Positions 40,949 to 49,757 of a stretch of DNA of 64,000 nucleotides are shown piece by piece. The position numbers were made by a program, and so were the translations under genes. The notes beneath the pieces are model-generated. The model saw only the letters and a program-made list of their open reading frames with translations. It did no database searches and was not told where the DNA came from. Where the stretch lies: contig CAJPFH010000062.1 in the NCBI GenBank assembly GCA_905339165.1, forward strand, positions 1 to 64,000. Direction: 5' to 3'. Each line of letters starts with the position of its first letter. Within the stretch, counting starts at the first letter, position 1. The stretch is from Flavobacteriales bacterium (GTDB lineage: Bacteria; Bacteroidota; Bacteroidia; Flavobacteriales_E; Vicingaceae).

Positions 40949-40987
40949 TCGTTTTTATTGGTAATCGAAAAATTATATGCAATATTG

Positions 40988-41016
40988 TTGCAAATAATTT
41001 TTTTTGTATAGATTTG
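40988..41016 (+). promoter_or_regulatory. Promoter of the TonB receptor/DUF4625 operon
   Basis: TTG (40988-40990), 18 bases, then TAGATTTG (41009-41016): both boxes at normal spacing, the clearest promoter of the window. It fits either the ATG at 41028 or the TTG at 41070. Confidence 0.65.
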
Positions 41017-41069
41017 TTCAATAAAAGATGCAAGAAATTTTTACAGTTTTTTTTGGTTATGAGGGGAGT

Positions 41070-43454
41070 TTGAAAAAACTCCTCCTTGTTTTTCTCTACC
41101 TATTAATGCTGGAATCGGGGGTAATTATAGCACAAACTTATAATATTAGTGGAGTTGTAGTAGATACAGCAGATAATCCAATAAACGGAGTGAGTATTTA
41201 TTTACACGAAACAAAATCGGGAGCAATAACCAATAATGAAGGAAAGTTTGAAATTAAAAATGTGAAAAGTGGTGCCTATCATTTGCATATTAAGCATTTA
41301 GGGTATGAAAGTCTTTCTAAAAACATAAAAGTGGCAAATGCCGATGTAGAAATTGATTTTCATTTGAAATCTGCCACTTTTGAATTTGAGCAGGTGTTGG
41401 TAGAATCGGATATGATGAGAACAGGAAAAGCGGAGCAAACTCAAACCATAGATGTTGTAAACGATGATTATTTGTTAAAATCTTTGGGAGTTAATTTAAT
41501 GCAATCATTAGAAAAAATATCTGGTGTTACATTCATTTCGGCAGGTACCGGAGTGGCAAAACCAATGATTCGGGGTATGGGATTTAATAGAATGGTTACG
41601 GTAGATAATGGCATAGTTCAAGATGGGCAGCAGTGGGGGAGTGACCATGGATTGGAAATAGATCAGTTTGGTATTGGCCGAGTGGAAATACTAAAAGGCC
41701 CAGCTTCGTTGGTGTATGGTTCGGATGCTATGGGAGGTTTGCTAAATCTAAAGCCTATGCCTATTCCCACACAAGGTAAAATGGCCGGATCGCTTGTTAC
41801 TTCAGGGCAGAATAATACGAATCTTTTCGCAACCTCTCTTATGCTGGAGGCAAATAAAAACGGGTTGTTTTTTAGAACCAGAGCTTCTTTTAGAGAGTAT
41901 GCCGATTATAAAGTTCCTGCCGACTCTTTTTCTTACAATCGTTATGTATTGCCACTATACAATAACCGATTAAAAAATACTGCCGGAAAAGAAGAGGCAT
42001 TTTCTTTTACAGGTGGCATAAATAAAAGCTGGGGAGTAACACAGCTAACAGTTTCTGCCTTTAGACAGTGGGTGGGCTTTTTTCCTGGAGCACATGGTAG
42101 GCCAAACATTAATCAGCTGCAGAACGATGGAAATAATAGAAATATAGAATACCCATATCAATATGTAGAACATTTTAAAATTAGTTCGAACACTAGCGTG
42201 CTTTTTAAAAAAAATTGGTTAGAAATTGATTTGGGGGTGCAGCAAAATGTAAGAAAAGAAAAAGAAGAATTACATTCCGGAGTTTATTTGCCAAGTTATA
42301 AAACAATCGATGAAGTTTTAAAACTGGTTTTACAAGTAGCTTCGGCAACTTTTAAATATCATTTAAACAGGAATGAAAAATGGCAACATGTTTTTGGGTT
42401 ATCGCTAAAAAGAAAAGAAAATAAAATAGGAGGGTATAATTTCTTAATCCCGGCATTTTCTGTAAACGAAGGAGGCCTTTTTATTTTTAGCGAATACAGG
42501 AAAAGCGAAAAATTAACCTTTAGTGGAGGTGTTCGTGCCGATGGTGGAGTAACCAATGTTTCCGGGTACATAGATACCATATATAACCAAGAGTTGTTAC
42601 CTATTTTATTTAGAATGCGTTCAACACCATTTAATCGTAGTTATTCTACTCTATCAGGTTCCTTCGGATTTTCTTGGGTTCTTAATTCCAAGTTAAATAT
42701 TAAGTATAATGTGGGTACTAGTTTCCGTTACCCAACGGTGGCAGAACTTGCTTCTAACGGTTTGCACCATGGTGCTTTTAGGTACGAAAAAGGAAATGCG
42801 AATCTTAAGGCTGAAAGAGGCTACCAAACAGACTTGAATGTTACCTTTCAGAAAAAACAGGTAATGTTTAGAATAACCCCTTTTTTTAATTATTTTACCC
42901 ATTACATTTATTTAACACCAAGTGGAAAGTATACAACCTCAGCCGAGGGGGGAGGGCAAATTTATAACTACAAGCAAAGTAACGTGTTTTTTACAGGTTA
43001 TGAAACCGATGTAGATGTGCATATTCATCATCGGTGGCACTTAGGGTTTATACACGACTTCGTATATAATTATAATTTTTCTACAACACTACCCTTGCCT
43101 TTTTCCGTACCTTCTTCTGTTACATTCGAAAAGGAATATACTGTAGTAAAAGAACATAAAAGATTTTCTAATGTGTATGTAGGCATAGATTCTCGTTATG
43201 TTTTTGCACAACATAGAGTAGAACGTAATGAAAAAAACACACCACAATATCTTTTATTTAATTTTTCTATGGGCTCTACTTTATTAATAGGTAAACAAGA
43301 AGTAATTTTTGTTTTTCAGGTAAGAAATTTATTGAATCAAAAATATTTTAATCATTTAAGTGTTTATCGTCCGTTAAATTTGCCTGAGCCAGGACGAAAC
43401 ATTACCGTTTCACTTAAGATACCATTTACTATTATTAATTCTAAACCTCAATAA
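41070..43454 (+). CDS. TonB-dependent receptor with CarboxypepD_reg domain
   Basis: 794 residues from the TTG at 41070, which gives a clean signal peptide (M-KKLLLVFLYLLMLESGVIIAQ); the ATG at 41028 would add 14 residues (808 total). Domains: signal peptide, CarboxypepD_reg-like beta-sandwich (about 25-110), plug (about 115-225), and a 22-stranded barrel with a C-terminal TonB-receptor end (VRNLLNQKYFNHLSVYRPLNLPEPGRN). Outer-membrane importer energised by TonB. There is no SusD partner, so it is a metal, cofactor or siderophore type rather than a glycan type. The DUF4625 lipoprotein begins 11 bases after the stop. Confidence 0.92.
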   Translation: MKKLLLVFLYLLMLESGVIIAQTYNISGVVVDTADNPINGVSIYLHETKSGAITNNEGKFEIKNVKSGAYHLHIKHLGYESLSKNIKVANADVEIDFHLKSATFEFEQVLVESDMMRTGKAEQTQTIDVVNDDYLLKSLGVNLMQSLEKISGVTFISAGTGVAKPMIRGMGFNRMVTVDNGIVQDGQQWGSDHGLEIDQFGIGRVEILKGPASLVYGSDAMGGLLNLKPMPIPTQGKMAGSLVTSGQNNTNLFATSLMLEANKNGLFFRTRASFREYADYKVPADSFSYNRYVLPLYNNRLKNTAGKEEAFSFTGGINKSWGVTQLTVSAFRQWVGFFPGAHGRPNINQLQNDGNNRNIEYPYQYVEHFKISSNTSVLFKKNWLEIDLGVQQNVRKEKEELHSGVYLPSYKTIDEVLKLVLQVASATFKYHLNRNEKWQHVFGLSLKRKENKIGGYNFLIPAFSVNEGGLFIFSEYRKSEKLTFSGGVRADGGVTNVSGYIDTIYNQELLPILFRMRSTPFNRSYSTLSGSFGFSWVLNSKLNIKYNVGTSFRYPTVAELASNGLHHGAFRYEKGNANLKAERGYQTDLNVTFQKKQVMFRITPFFNYFTHYIYLTPSGKYTTSAEGGGQIYNYKQSNVFFTGYETDVDVHIHHRWHLGFIHDFVYNYNFSTTLPLPFSVPSSVTFEKEYTVVKEHKRFSNVYVGIDSRYVFAQHRVERNEKNTPQYLLFNFSMGSTLLIGKQEVIFVFQVRNLLNQKYFNHLSVYRPLNLPEPGRNITVSLKIPFTIINSKPQ

Positions 43455-43465
43455 AAACAATAACC

Positions 43466-43885
43466 ATGAAGAGAAAAACAATGGCTTCTATTTTTTTTAT
43501 GACTTTGCCTATTCTGATTTTATCTTGCAAAAAAGAAAAAGCCGACACTGAAAAGCCAGCCATTAAAATGAACTCACCTACAGAAGATGCGGAATACAAG
43601 GCAGGCGAAACCATTGTATTCAATGCTACTTTTACAGATAATATTGCATTGAGCGAGTACGACATAGATATACACAATGGGGCAGGGCACGGACATGGTA
43701 GAATGATGGGAGTGTGGGCAATCGAAATTTCCGGAGAGCTTTCGGGTATTATGCACATTATCAAAAAGGAAATTAACATTCCAAATGATGCCGATACTGG
43801 AACCTATCATATGATTGTAAATGCATTAGATAAAGCAGGAAATGAAGCGGAGTTTGAGGAAATAGACTTTAAGATAATTTTATAG
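43466..43885 (+). CDS. DUF4625 lipoprotein with His-rich loop
   Basis: 139 residues. Lipoprotein signal with lipobox ending LSC (Cys21), then an Ig-like beta-sandwich of the DUF4625 type (KPAIKMNSPTEDAEYKAGETIVF). Between strands lies IDIHNGAGHGHGRMMG, with three histidines and two methionines, a plausible metal-binding loop. Lies directly after the TonB receptor gene and presumably captures the same cargo, at the surface or in the periplasm. A metal such as zinc or copper is the simplest guess; it is not proven. Confidence 0.85.
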   Translation: MKRKTMASIFFMTLPILILSCKKEKADTEKPAIKMNSPTEDAEYKAGETIVFNATFTDNIALSEYDIDIHNGAGHGHGRMMGVWAIEISGELSGIMHIIKKEINIPNDADTGTYHMIVNALDKAGNEAEFEEIDFKIIL

Positions 43886-43895
43886 AGGATTAAAA

Positions 43896-44786
43896 TTATT
43901 TGTTGGGTTGTGGTGTTTTTTCGAGTTTGTAAAACTTATCTTTTATATTTTTTTCAAGTCGGGCATCATAATCCGAAATAAAAATCCATTTTCCTTTTTC
44001 CAGTTTAAATGCATCGAACGAACCATCTGGTACATGATAGGCTTTTACATCTTTTAAGCCACTGCTAATGGGTGAGAGATGATCGAAAATAATGCATCTT
44101 TCTTTTTCGTTGTAATTTAACGTAAAGTTGGCCTCGTCTGCATACTCAAAGAGATAGCGTTTTTGAGGTTTCTGTTTCGATTTAAAAATGGAGGCACCTA
44201 GTAATAACTCATTATTGTTGTTAAAATACAACACTTCAATAACTTTTCGGTTGGTAAGCAGGTTATTTCCGTCCCAACCTAACAGAGTATAGTAGGTTTG
44301 CTTGCCGTTTTTAACTTCAATCAGGTTATAATAATGAGCCCCAAACCATTGCGTGTTTTTTAAAGTTGAATTTTCTATATTTTTCAAGTTCGTTTTGTTA
44401 TCGGTAAGTTCAAAAACTTCTACTTTATTTTCCGTATTATTTTTTTTTACTACAAAAGCGTGGTAAGAAAAAGTGCCATCGGAATAAGGTATATGCCAGT
44501 TAAAAATACGAACTTGTTTATCGGTCGATGTAAAGCGGGCAATGGTTTTTAATTCGTCAAACGGGTAACTAAAAAATTTAGCATTGGTAAGTATAGATTG
44601 AATGTTGTTTTTAAACACCACATTTAATGAATCTTTTTCAGGGTCGGTTCCTTCTTTCAGAATTTGATGAGAGAGCTGTTGAAGTTCTATTAAAGACTGG
44701 GTATTTGGCGTTTCCTGCGAGAATAAAACAAAAGGGCAAAAAACACAAAAAAAGAGCACCCGATATGTTACGATTATTTTTTTCAT
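43896..44786 (-). CDS. Secreted protein of unknown function
   Basis: 296 residues with a signal peptide (about 1-24, ending LFSQ). The mature part is a beta-rich, Asn/Lys-rich domain with conserved-looking segments FNWHIPYSDGTFSYHAFVV, YYTLLGWDGN and RYLFEYADEANF. I recognise it only as a type often annotated hypothetical in Bacteroidota. Standalone; converges on the DUF4625 gene and lies downstream of the ferredoxin gene with a 48-base gap. Confidence 0.65.
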   Translation of the reverse strand: MKKIIVTYRVLFFCVFCPFVLFSQETPNTQSLIELQQLSHQILKEGTDPEKDSLNVVFKNNIQSILTNAKFFSYPFDELKTIARFTSTDKQVRIFNWHIPYSDGTFSYHAFVVKKNNTENKVEVFELTDNKTNLKNIENSTLKNTQWFGAHYYNLIEVKNGKQTYYTLLGWDGNNLLTNRKVIEVLYFNNNNELLLGASIFKSKQKPQKRYLFEYADEANFTLNYNEKERCIIFDHLSPISSGLKDVKAYHVPDGSFDAFKLEKGKWIFISDYDARLEKNIKDKFYKLEKTPQPNK

Positions 44787-46429: not shown

Positions 46430-48712
46430 ATGAAAAAAATTATATTGTTTTTAGTGTGTTCTGTGATAGCAGTGCCACTTTTTTCTCAAATTTTTTGGAC
46501 AGAAACATTTGGTACAGGCTGTAATCAAGGCCAAAATGCCAATGGTTTTGTTTCGGCAAATGGAGTTTGGACAGTAACGAACACCGGAGTAAATGCCGCT
46601 GAAGCAAACAAATGGTTTGTAAGTGCCACCGAAGCCGGAATGGGCAGCGGAAATTGTGGTGACGGCTGCCTTAATAACGGAGGTTTAACTGACAGAACAT
46701 TACACATTGGCTCCGATGATGGTTTTTTTCCTACCGATTTGGGTGCAGCTTACAATGCCGGTGGAGTGTGTGGGGTATTATATTGCGTAGAAACCGACAA
46801 AAGAGCCGAATCGCCAGCAATAAACTGCACCGGCCAAAATAATATTCAACTTTCTTTTCATTACATAGAGTTTGGCGATGGAACAAATGATGATGGCTCC
46901 CTTTGGTATTTCGATGGTGCCATTTGGTCGCAATTGGTAAACTTGCCAAAAACTATGTGTTGCGATGGATTTGGTAACCCCATTCCATGCACAGGAACCG
47001 AACAAGCTAAGTGGACCACCTATTCTATAGCCCTTCCACCTTCAGCCAACAATAATCCGGGAGTTAAAATTGGTTTCAGGTGGGTTAATAATGACGATGG
47101 AGTAGGAACCGATCCCTCTTTTGCCGTAGATAGTATTTCTCTTTCTGCACAAGCCGGAACGCCTCCTACGGCTGCTTTTTCTGCCAGCTCTACCAATATT
47201 TGCGAAAACGACTGCATTACGTTTACCGATAATAGCACAGGAAGCCCTACTTCATGGATGTGGTATTTTCCGGGGGGAGTGCCTGCCACATTTAACGGGC
47301 AAAACCCTCCTGCGGTTTGCTACCCCAATGCCGGAACATACCCGGTTTCTTTGGTAGTTACCAATATCAATGGTCAGGATTCTCTCGGAATAAATTCATA
47401 CATTACGGTTAGCTCCTGTATTCAACCTACGGCCGATTTTACAGCCAATAATACAACCATTTGTTCTGGTGATTGTGTAAACTTTACCGATTTAAGTACC
47501 AATGCAACTAGTTGGAAATGGTATTTCCCCGGAGGAACACCTGCCACATCTACCCAACAAAACCCTACCATTTGTTATAATACTCCAGGCATTTACACTG
47601 TTTCACTTGTAGCATACAACGGGCCGGTACAAGATTCCATTGCAAAAGTGAATTATATTACGGTTCAGTCTTGCACTATGCCCGTGGTTCAGTTTGTGGC
47701 TAGCCAAACCGAAATATGCGACAGCATGTGCATTAGTTTTACCGACCAAAGTACAAATAACCCAACTTCATGGCAATGGTTTTTCCCGGGAGCAGTACCG
47801 GGTGGTTCAAATTTGCAAAACCCTACCAATATTTGCTATTACGATACCGGAACTTTTACGGTAACGCTTATTGCTACCAACCAGTTTGGAAGTACCACAC
47901 TTACTAAAACAAACTACATTACAGTAAAAGCCTGTAACAAACCTGTTGCACTGTTTGATATGCCTATTATCTGTTACAACAGTTGTGTAAACTTTAAAAG
48001 TTTAACTTTAAACCAGCCCGATAGTGTTATGTGGGTTTTTGAAGGAGCCAATCAGGATACGGTTAAAGCCTTTAATCCCCAAAGTATTTGTTGGTTCGAT
48101 ACAACCGGCTGTTTCTCTGTTAAGTTGTATGCATGGAATGCCTATGGCGTAGATTCTATTTTTAAAACCATTTGTATTGATACCTTGCCAACTGTAGATG
48201 CAGGAAAAGATACCACCATTTTTTGGGGAGGTTTAGATGGAGCTACCCTTTTTGCAGTGGGAAGCAATGATAGTTTAAATAAAGCAACTTATATTTGGAG
48301 TCCGTCCAATTTAGTAGATTGTTATTATTGCCAAAAAACCAATACGAACCCCGATGATTCTACTTTGTTTATTGTCAAATACACCGACCATCACGGGTGT
48401 GTGGCATACGATACGGTTTGGGTATTTGTAAAATGGGAGGCCAATATTGGTGTTCCCAATGCATTTTCGCCCAACTTCGATGGAAACAACGATGTTTTAT
48501 ATGTACGGGGTAAGGGTATAAAATCTTTACAGTTTACTATTTACAACCGGTACGGACAGCAAGTTTTTGAAAGCACCGACCAAAGTTTTGGATGGGACGG
48601 TACACACAAAGGAAAAGAAGTAAACCCAGGTGTTTATGTATATTTTGTGGATGCAATAATGAAAGATGATACAAGGCGTGCCCTTAAGGGAAATGTTACT
48701 TTAATCAGATAA
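46430..48712 (+). CDS. T9SS type B surface protein with tandem PKD domains
   Basis: 760 residues with a signal peptide (1-20, ending LFSQ). Residues about 25-240 form an N-terminal beta-sandwich (a galactose-binding-like or MAM-like fold; segment SPAINCTGQNNIQLSFHYIE). Then three PKD modules (about 245-327, 332-414, 417-500), each with a paired-cysteine N-cap and a WYFPGG-type core, a fourth divergent module (about 504-584), and the type B C-terminal domain (about 672-760: FSPNFDGNND, WDG). Exported through T9SS. The PorP/SprF gene follows 10 bases after the stop and is very probably its retention partner. Confidence 0.92.
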   Translation: MKKIILFLVCSVIAVPLFSQIFWTETFGTGCNQGQNANGFVSANGVWTVTNTGVNAAEANKWFVSATEAGMGSGNCGDGCLNNGGLTDRTLHIGSDDGFFPTDLGAAYNAGGVCGVLYCVETDKRAESPAINCTGQNNIQLSFHYIEFGDGTNDDGSLWYFDGAIWSQLVNLPKTMCCDGFGNPIPCTGTEQAKWTTYSIALPPSANNNPGVKIGFRWVNNDDGVGTDPSFAVDSISLSAQAGTPPTAAFSASSTNICENDCITFTDNSTGSPTSWMWYFPGGVPATFNGQNPPAVCYPNAGTYPVSLVVTNINGQDSLGINSYITVSSCIQPTADFTANNTTICSGDCVNFTDLSTNATSWKWYFPGGTPATSTQQNPTICYNTPGIYTVSLVAYNGPVQDSIAKVNYITVQSCTMPVVQFVASQTEICDSMCISFTDQSTNNPTSWQWFFPGAVPGGSNLQNPTNICYYDTGTFTVTLIATNQFGSTTLTKTNYITVKACNKPVALFDMPIICYNSCVNFKSLTLNQPDSVMWVFEGANQDTVKAFNPQSICWFDTTGCFSVKLYAWNAYGVDSIFKTICIDTLPTVDAGKDTTIFWGGLDGATLFAVGSNDSLNKATYIWSPSNLVDCYYCQKTNTNPDDSTLFIVKYTDHHGCVAYDTVWVFVKWEANIGVPNAFSPNFDGNNDVLYVRGKGIKSLQFTIYNRYGQQVFESTDQSFGWDGTHKGKEVNPGVYVYFVDAIMKDDTRRALKGNVTLIR
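47163..47930 (+). repeat. Three tandem PKD-encoding repeats
   Basis: Three copies of about 250 bases, each encoding a PKD module starting near C-x-D/E-C and containing W-x-W-(Y/F)-FPG, then NP and a YxxGxYxVSLVA strand. The amino acids are clearly related; the module in the 4306-7353 gene belongs to the same set. Confidence 0.8.
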
Positions 48713-48722
48713 AAAGAGAAAT

Positions 48723-49757
48723 ATGAAAAGAATAATATATATTGGTTTGTTGTTGGTGGTAACACTCAGCGAACTAAAGGCTCAGCAAGATGTGCATTTT
48801 TCTCAATTTTATTCATCTCCTTTAACTGTTAATCCTGCTCAGGCAGGTTTGTTTAATGGGGGGGTAAGGGCTATGGTTAATTACCGTTCACAATGGGCGG
48901 CTGTAAACAATCCGTTTACCACAATTTCTGGTTCAGTTGACGGAGGATTGTTTAGAGAAAAGATAAGCAATGGCTTTTTTGGAGTGGGCGGAAATGTGAT
49001 AAAGGATGATGCCGGAGATGCCCAGTTTTCTACATTAAACGGGAATCTTTCACTTTCCTACCATTTCGATTTATCGGGCGGTGAAGAAATGTCGTATTTC
49101 TCAGTAGGTTTTCAGGGTGGTTACCTGCAACGCAGTATTTCATTAGGGTCGTTGTATTGGGACCAACAGTGGGACGGATCTGCCTTTAACACCTCGTTGC
49201 CTCATAATGAAGCGTATCAAGATTTATCTTATTCCAGATGGGTATTTGCCTCGGGTGTAAATTGGTATATCAATTCGTACGATAATTCCAAACAGTTTTA
49301 TATTGGTTTATCTGCATTTAATTTAAATGCACCCAATGTTGGTTTTAAATCTACCAGCGAAGATTATTTAAGACGTTATCAGTTACATGGCGGAGCTGAA
49401 ATTTTATTCCCCAACTCAACCGTATCAGTAGTTCCTAATGCGATTTATATGATGCAGGGTCCGAATCGCTACCTAAATTTGGGTACCGATGTAAAATTTT
49501 TACTCAGTGAACGTACTGCAATTACAAATTACCATAATGAAAGTTCTCTTCATTTTGGAGTGTATCACCGCTTTAAAGATGCTTTATATGCTACCTTTAT
49601 GATTAACTGGGTGGGTTTATCGTTAGGAGCAAGCTACGACTTTAATATATCAGGATTAAAGGCGGTAACCAACAGCAACGGAGGTATGGAAATATTTCTT
49701 CGGTACCGTTCGGGTTTTGGCGGAGGAAAACGCCCTCACAAAGTGCGGTTTATTTAA
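48723..49757 (+). CDS. PorP/SprF-family T9SS outer-membrane protein
   Basis: 344 residues with a signal peptide (about 1-20, ending LKAQ). It begins QQDVHFSQFYSSPLTVNPAQAG, the signature of the PorP/SprF family, followed by beta-barrel strands (MVNYRSQWAAV, NGFFGVGGN). Such proteins hold type B sorted proteins at the cell surface and, for SprF, help secrete the SprB adhesin. It directly follows its presumed client. The stop codon overlaps the stop of the convergent lipoprotein gene within a shared TTAA at 49754-49757. Confidence 0.95.
   Translation: MKRIIYIGLLLVVTLSELKAQQDVHFSQFYSSPLTVNPAQAGLFNGGVRAMVNYRSQWAAVNNPFTTISGSVDGGLFREKISNGFFGVGGNVIKDDAGDAQFSTLNGNLSLSYHFDLSGGEEMSYFSVGFQGGYLQRSISLGSLYWDQQWDGSAFNTSLPHNEAYQDLSYSRWVFASGVNWYINSYDNSKQFYIGLSAFNLNAPNVGFKSTSEDYLRRYQLHGGAEILFPNSTVSVVPNAIYMMQGPNRYLNLGTDVKFLLSERTAITNYHNESSLHFGVYHRFKDALYATFMINWVGLSLGASYDFNISGLKAVTNSNGGMEIFLRYRSGFGGGKRPHKVRFI

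Follow-up and report, generated by a model that had tools for sequence, protein, structure and literature searches.

The window analysed here is a stretch of 64,000 nucleotides from a Flavobacteriales bacterium, and ORF and Pfam analysis places in it two genes that form a transcription unit on the + strand. The first of them (41028-43454) encodes a ZnuD-like TonB-dependent receptor of 808 amino acids, assigned from its ORF and from Pfam, NCBIfam, PDB and structure matches. Its Pfam domains are an N-terminal carboxypeptidase-regulatory-like domain (CarbopepD_reg_2), a plug and a barrel. The second gene (43466-43885) follows after a gap of 11 bp and encodes a lipoprotein of 139 amino acids, which is predicted to fold as an Ig-like beta sandwich. 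This protein scores 84 bits against the DUF4625 family (PF15418), for which the Pfam gathering cut-off is 27, and it is the one DUF4625 match in the genome. Both ORFs had been proposed in a preliminary description of this DNA and both are confirmed. The unit ends on its downstream side at a convergent gene of 296 amino acids (43896-44786). Upstream of the receptor lies a divergent C1 peptidase, and the other flanking genes include a ferredoxin and a LuxC-like protein. Further along the window (46430-49757) are genes for a PKD-repeat protein with a CHU_C type IX secretion signal and then PorP/SprF, a pairing often seen in type IX secretion.

The CarbopepD_reg_2 domain and plug are also found in SusC/RagA proteins. 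However, the receptor scores 64.4 bits in TIGR04056, where the cut-off is 368.25, and a Pfam scan of the flanking genes showed no SusD gene, as the preliminary description had claimed. A SusC/SusD nutrient system was rejected on both counts.

The same description had called the promoter complete but saw no Zur or Fur box. The first of these statements has held up. A -33 TTG (40988-40990) and a -7 element, TAGATTTG (41009-41016), are separated by an 18-nt spacer, giving a Bacteroidota-type promoter at 40988-41016 on the + strand when compared with what we take to be the consensus for the phylum. A sigma-70 scan, the model for which does not cover Bacteroidota promoters, detected no excess of promoters over shuffles. 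The second statement does not agree with what is present. A near-palindrome of 35 bp occupies 40968-41002, its 15-nt arms being 93% complementary and separated by a 5-nt spacer. Its core, TGCAATATTGTTGCA (40978-40992), recurs in relatives, and the -33 TTG falls inside it. This is the candidate Zur box. On its own the palindrome is only modestly unlikely to arise by chance, because shuffling of the AT-rich promoter produced equally good 11-nt arms in 15 of 2000 cases. Its meaning comes from its conservation in relatives, not from the single sequence. In G300, a genome from the same genus, the box reads TTTATTTGCAACAACATTGCAAATAAA, so that the arms are kept, the spacer is changed and the palindrome is perfect. 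If the divergent peptidase is extended to a TTG start, its ORF formally overlaps the window box, but the box is intergenic if the peptidase begins at its ATG, as it does in G300 (397 amino acids).

One other feature lies close to the promoter. A terminator-like hairpin of nine pairs with a T-rich stretch (41063-41084) lies a short way into the receptor gene as annotated, and its inner pairs are kept in G300. Translation of the receptor may begin at a TTG at 41070 instead of the ATG at 41028, in which case this could be a leader hairpin.

The genome that contains the window has seven sites within one mismatch of TGCAAYANNGTTGCA. These are the window site, a site at C5:170825 and five sites within ORFs, of which four are long and one has 67 amino acids. 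A separate genome scan placed the window site among five within one mismatch. The C5:170825 site is intergenic, is unchanged in G300 and is the only other near-match (one mismatch or fewer) in this genome that is clearly upstream of a gene. It lies 53 bp upstream of a methyltransferase gene and then the gene for a ZIP transporter (Pfam Zip, 4.9e-20), the methyltransferase gene sitting between box and ZIP gene within C5:170825-172370 (L204:2826-4371). A search at two mismatches yielded 131 strand-wise matches but no clean list, and therefore only sites with one mismatch or fewer are interpreted.

Two FUR-family proteins are encoded in this genome, one on contig C5 (138 amino acids) and one on C4. 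The C5 protein matches all 34 FUR ORFs found in a set of 80 loci with related receptors (mean 90 bits) and the C4 protein matches 10 of them (mean 19 bits); the HMM that found the 34 ORFs included the C5 protein, and the bit comparison was made without that HMM. In addition, the best PDB match of the C5 protein is titled 'Zinc uptake regulation protein' (9.7e-5), an entry that we take to be 4mtd, the Zur of E. coli. Therefore, judging from these matches, the C5 protein is likely to be the Zur of this organism. Its gene is located apart from the receptor cassette, and a search around it found no good box.

The 80 loci also provide a test of the box. They are the best 80 of 576 candidate loci with related receptors, and the box pattern was fixed from the G300 site and from zur-merC sites before they were retrieved; at least one of them (L177) is apparently from the same genome as G285. 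Of the 80 loci, 31 have an exact TGCAA-N5-TTGCA in the 1 kb that precedes the receptor. As a control the arms were permuted in 60 ways, and the next best pattern reached 2 of the 80. Position tells the same way, with 33 exact boxes in 81 kb of upstream DNA versus 33 in the other 1.13 Mb. When one mismatch to TGCAAYNNNRTTGCA is allowed, 52 loci have a box and 28 have none in the 1 kb searched. The reversed pattern was found in 0 of 80, although this control contains CG, may be too lenient and was replaced by the arm permutations and the positional control.

The zur-merC sites come from two further genomes in which merC, folE and a gene of the FUR family lie close to the cassette. In both, TGCAAC-N3-GTTGCA lies between the FUR-family regulator gene (zur) and merC. 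A palindromic promoter box common to other zinc genes, as expected of a Zur regulon, is thus found in the window, at the ZIP operon and, elsewhere, at zur-merC. The arrangement can be seen at L050:11732-12782 and L060:6264-7323, where folE (GTP cyclohydrolase I) and MerC genes come after a Zur-like gene that points the other way, with the box in between; those in L060 were named by similarity to L050. This folE-MerC unit is likely to be a zinc-sparing operon. Exact boxes at L060:888, 2472 and 2510 (genome G191) also precede a 380-amino acid oxidoreductase-like ORF and a 125-amino acid ORF, which are candidates for further Zur targets. Zur boxes are described as pseudo-palindromic, 7-1-7 being among the types (PMC6103462). 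The window box is like those of other phyla in this respect, but its pattern differs in sequence. The accessible text of that review contains no term beginning with Bacteroid or Flavobact, and we found no description of TGCAAYNNNRTTGCA in the literature searched, from which subscription journals were largely absent. It is proposed here as a candidate Bacteroidota Zur box.

Co-occurrence of DUF4625 with Zur-regulated genes had been suggested as a check in the preliminary description. Of the 80 loci, 67 have a DUF4625 gene, in 63 cases within 700 bp on the receptor strand, and 33 have a FUR-family gene, in 24 cases no more than 700 bp away and on that strand too. DUF4625 was not seen in 13 loci, nor a FUR gene in 47, with some contigs ending early. 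CobW-type GTPases and MerC each occur in three of the 80. Another small gene recurs upstream of the receptor, at L050:11418-11726, at L060:10973-11332 and in 17 of the 80 loci, whereas the window lacks it. Its product is a His/Cys-bearing protein of 102-135 amino acids, weakly DUF2946-like in one case, which may be another zinc-starvation protein.

The gene pair is shared with many other Bacteroidota, and its wider distribution is uneven. In a sample of the phylum, 17 of 296 genomes have a DUF4625 match at an E value of 0.001 or better, 14 of them above the cut-off. In the order to which the window belongs, matches occur in 18 of 46 genomes, but strong ones only in the genome of the window and in G300; nearly all of the weak ones are in frames of about 420-460 amino acids. 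Related receptors (E up to 1e-60) are found in 33 of these 46 genomes and are 27-35% identical outside the genus. Eight such receptors (L208-L215) have no DUF4625 gene in the flanks available and no box within one mismatch, and therefore they are probably other receptors. Taken with the restriction of strong DUF4625 matches to one genus of the order, this makes the receptor-DUF4625 pair look patchy, and the genus may have acquired it.

What might the lipoprotein do? Its predicted structure (pLDDT 87.6) is an Ig-like sandwich that resembles PKD, FN3 and carbohydrate-binding domains. Structure matches to PKD, FN3 and CBM-like folds (Z up to 11.5) gave no functional hint, and such a common sandwich is uninformative about metal. 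The loop IDIHNGAGHGHGRMMG (residues 67-82; 43664-43711, + strand) contains His70, His75 and His77, and a GTYH strand contributes His115 (43808-43810, + strand). An alignment was made of the window protein and 34 of the 88 DUF4625 ORFs found, chosen for a length of fewer than 205 amino acids and an E value below 1e-20. Among these 35 proteins His70 is kept in 35, His75 in 34, His77 in 33 and His115 in 34, and His115 is, on this pattern of conservation, the likely fourth ligand. The preliminary description had stressed both His and Met in this loop. The His residues are conserved, but the two Met residues of the window loop are not. A motif of the form [DEN]xH-x(2-6)-HxH is found in 60 of the 88 ORFs, and 58 of 67 DUF4625 loci have it in one copy or more. 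The window loop is therefore its version of a family motif that often reads HNNFDxHxH.

The location of the lipoprotein is a separate matter. A lipobox (LILSC, followed by KKEKADTE) marks Cys21 as the lipid-anchor residue (43526-43528, + strand). A lipobox-like Cys is present in 86 of the 88 DUF4625 ORFs, and 85 of these 86 have two or more acids at positions +2 to +8. This resembles the acid-rich signals that follow the Cys of exported surface lipoproteins, described as C-X-K-(D/E)2 in the part of the source available (PMC5080379). The window protein itself is only a loose fit to that signal, since it reads CKKEKADTE. The departure favours a different arrangement in which zinc is imported but the lipoprotein faces the periplasm, as a zinc chaperone, a storage protein or a partner of the barrel. 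We regard this as unlikely, while allowing it more room than any other alternative, given the acid-rich relatives and two known systems that point to the surface. XusA-XusB and BtuB-BtuG of Bacteroides thetaiotaomicron likewise pair a TonB receptor with a surface lipoprotein (PDB titles 9gbc and 8blw), differing in that their substrates are a siderophore and B12 and not the zinc proposed here. By analogy with these systems the DUF4625 lipoprotein is probably on the surface, and from the same analogy we infer that it could hand zinc over to the receptor.

The case for zinc comes largely from the receptor. ZnuD of Neisseria meningitidis (PDB 4rdr, 4rdt and 4rvw) is its best match in both sequence and structure. 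ZnuD is the top PDB sequence match of the single protein (7.5e-20) and ranks first for a profile of 76 receptors (6.2e-42). An AlphaFold2 model of the receptor (pLDDT 88.8) also places ZnuD first in Foldseek (6.9e-40), and VIA-align 2 gives Z 38.6 with an rmsd of 2.1 over 585 residues at 20% identity, ahead of the copper receptor OprC (Z 36.2) and the heme receptor ChuA (Z 35.7). In the broad sense of a protein whose closest solved structure is ZnuD, this is a ZnuD-type receptor. However, it differs from ZnuD in being about 20% identical, in its extra N-terminal carboxypeptidase-regulatory-like domain, in its partner lipoprotein and in its Bacteroidota host. It scores 114.5 bits in the NCBIfam ZnuD exception model (NF038289), for which the curated cut-off is 950, and 120.8 bits in the heme/hemoglobin model TIGR01785, for which it is 316.85. 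Therefore, as far as sequence models can tell, it is a distant ZnuD relative that falls outside the narrow NCBIfam model.

The buried zinc site of ZnuD is formed by Asp99, His100, Glu340 and His499 (PMC4557270, in the part available). Three of these four have aligned counterparts in the profile alignment, in which the ZnuD chain numbering is offset by 14 and the correspondence is our own reading. Asp206-His207 in the apical loop of the plug (41643-41648, + strand) aligns with Asp99-His100, and His580 in loop 6 (42765-42767, + strand) aligns with His499. Among the 76 receptors Asp206 is kept in 73 and His207 in 76, and position 580 is His in 55 and Asn in 21. An equivalent of Glu340 was not located in the printed profile alignment, which lacks that region; candidates for its role are the invariant Glu411 and His382. 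The receptor most likely functions like ZnuD and would bind zinc.

In what form does the zinc arrive? One suggestion is that it enters as a metallophore or as a zinc-protein complex captured by the lipoprotein. This is compatible with ZnuD according to the accessible part of PMC4557270, but the same source has ZnuD holding a bare zinc ion, and among the genes next to the cassette in the window none for biosynthesis was noticed. We consider this suggestion improbable.

A further alternative is that this is a receptor for heme or hemoproteins. Heme receptors have the same pair of His residues in the plug loop and loop 6, with similar motifs, TIGR01785 is the best NCBIfam match by E value and PhuR is second among the PDB sequence matches. 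However, the TIGR01785 score is well below the cut-off, ZnuD outranks PhuR in sequence and structure, and ZnuD itself was formerly misannotated as a heme receptor (PMC4557270, in the part available). The Zur-type box, the Zur-like genes and the MerC, FolE, CobW or ZIP neighbours in some genomes also argue against heme, which leaves this alternative very improbable.

Least probable of all, by a little, is an importer of copper (or of nickel or cobalt) with the His and Met of the lipoprotein as copper ligands, since the closeness of OprC in structure and the two Met in the window loop are outweighed by conservation of the His but not the Met residues, by the absence of Cys from the receptor (OprC uses Cys for copper), by a score of 43.2 bits against a cut-off of 472.45 in the copper receptor model TIGR01778 and by the Zur-type regulation. 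Zinc is preferred over copper because ZnuD is the top match by sequence and structure, three of its four ligands align, the receptor has no Cys and the box is of Zur type.

The earlier idea, of metal import across the outer membrane with the help of a capture lipoprotein, is therefore the best-supported reading, with ZnuD as top match and the aligned ligands in its favour. The gene pair, the ZnuD-like fold and ligands, the conserved box and the co-occurrence are computational observations. Very probably they reflect a Zur-repressed two-gene operon for zinc uptake with a capture lipoprotein, a reading in which we infer that zinc is bound, that the lipoprotein is at the surface and that Zur binds the box.

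How might such an operon work? When the cytoplasm has enough zinc, Zur in its zinc-loaded form (probably the C5 protein) would sit on 40968-41002 and cover the -33 element, a repression step suggested by conservation of the box. When zinc is short Zur would be released and both genes would be made. The Cys21-anchored lipoprotein, probably on the surface, would then hold zinc via His70, His75, His77 and His115, as conservation of these residues and the pairing of the genes suggest. It might pass the zinc to the receptor or cap the receptor. Within the receptor, by homology with ZnuD, zinc would occupy a buried site made of Asp206, His207, His580 and a further acidic residue, and would be moved into the periplasm with TonB energy. 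The box common to the ZIP operon and the window suggests that the ZIP transporter would then take periplasmic zinc to the cytoplasm.

In the literature searched on zinc, ZnuD and Zur in Bacteroidota, we found no paper on a receptor-DUF4625 pair and none that names DUF4625, subscription journals being largely outside the search. The system proposed here is a known type of receptor with an unstudied lipoprotein partner, together with a candidate Zur box that we did not find described there. A broader proposal, to which we give somewhat better than even chances, is that DUF4625 lipoproteins capture zinc at the surface across the whole phylum, each as a four-His Ig-like lid on a ZnuD-type receptor under the Bacteroidota Zur box TGCAAYNNNRTTGCA. 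If this is true, DUF4625 would be for zinc what XusB and BtuG, neither of them to our knowledge a DUF4625 Ig-like protein, are for their own substrates, and would win the metal from competitors, from host proteins or from dilute water. A function could then be assigned to a domain that has none so far, and the outer-membrane zinc route would be named for many Bacteroidota, among them those with the Flavobacterium and Bacteroides loci. With the Zur box, the zinc regulon could be read from sequence across the phylum, and competition for zinc among gut and aquatic Bacteroidota would become testable through a single gene pair.
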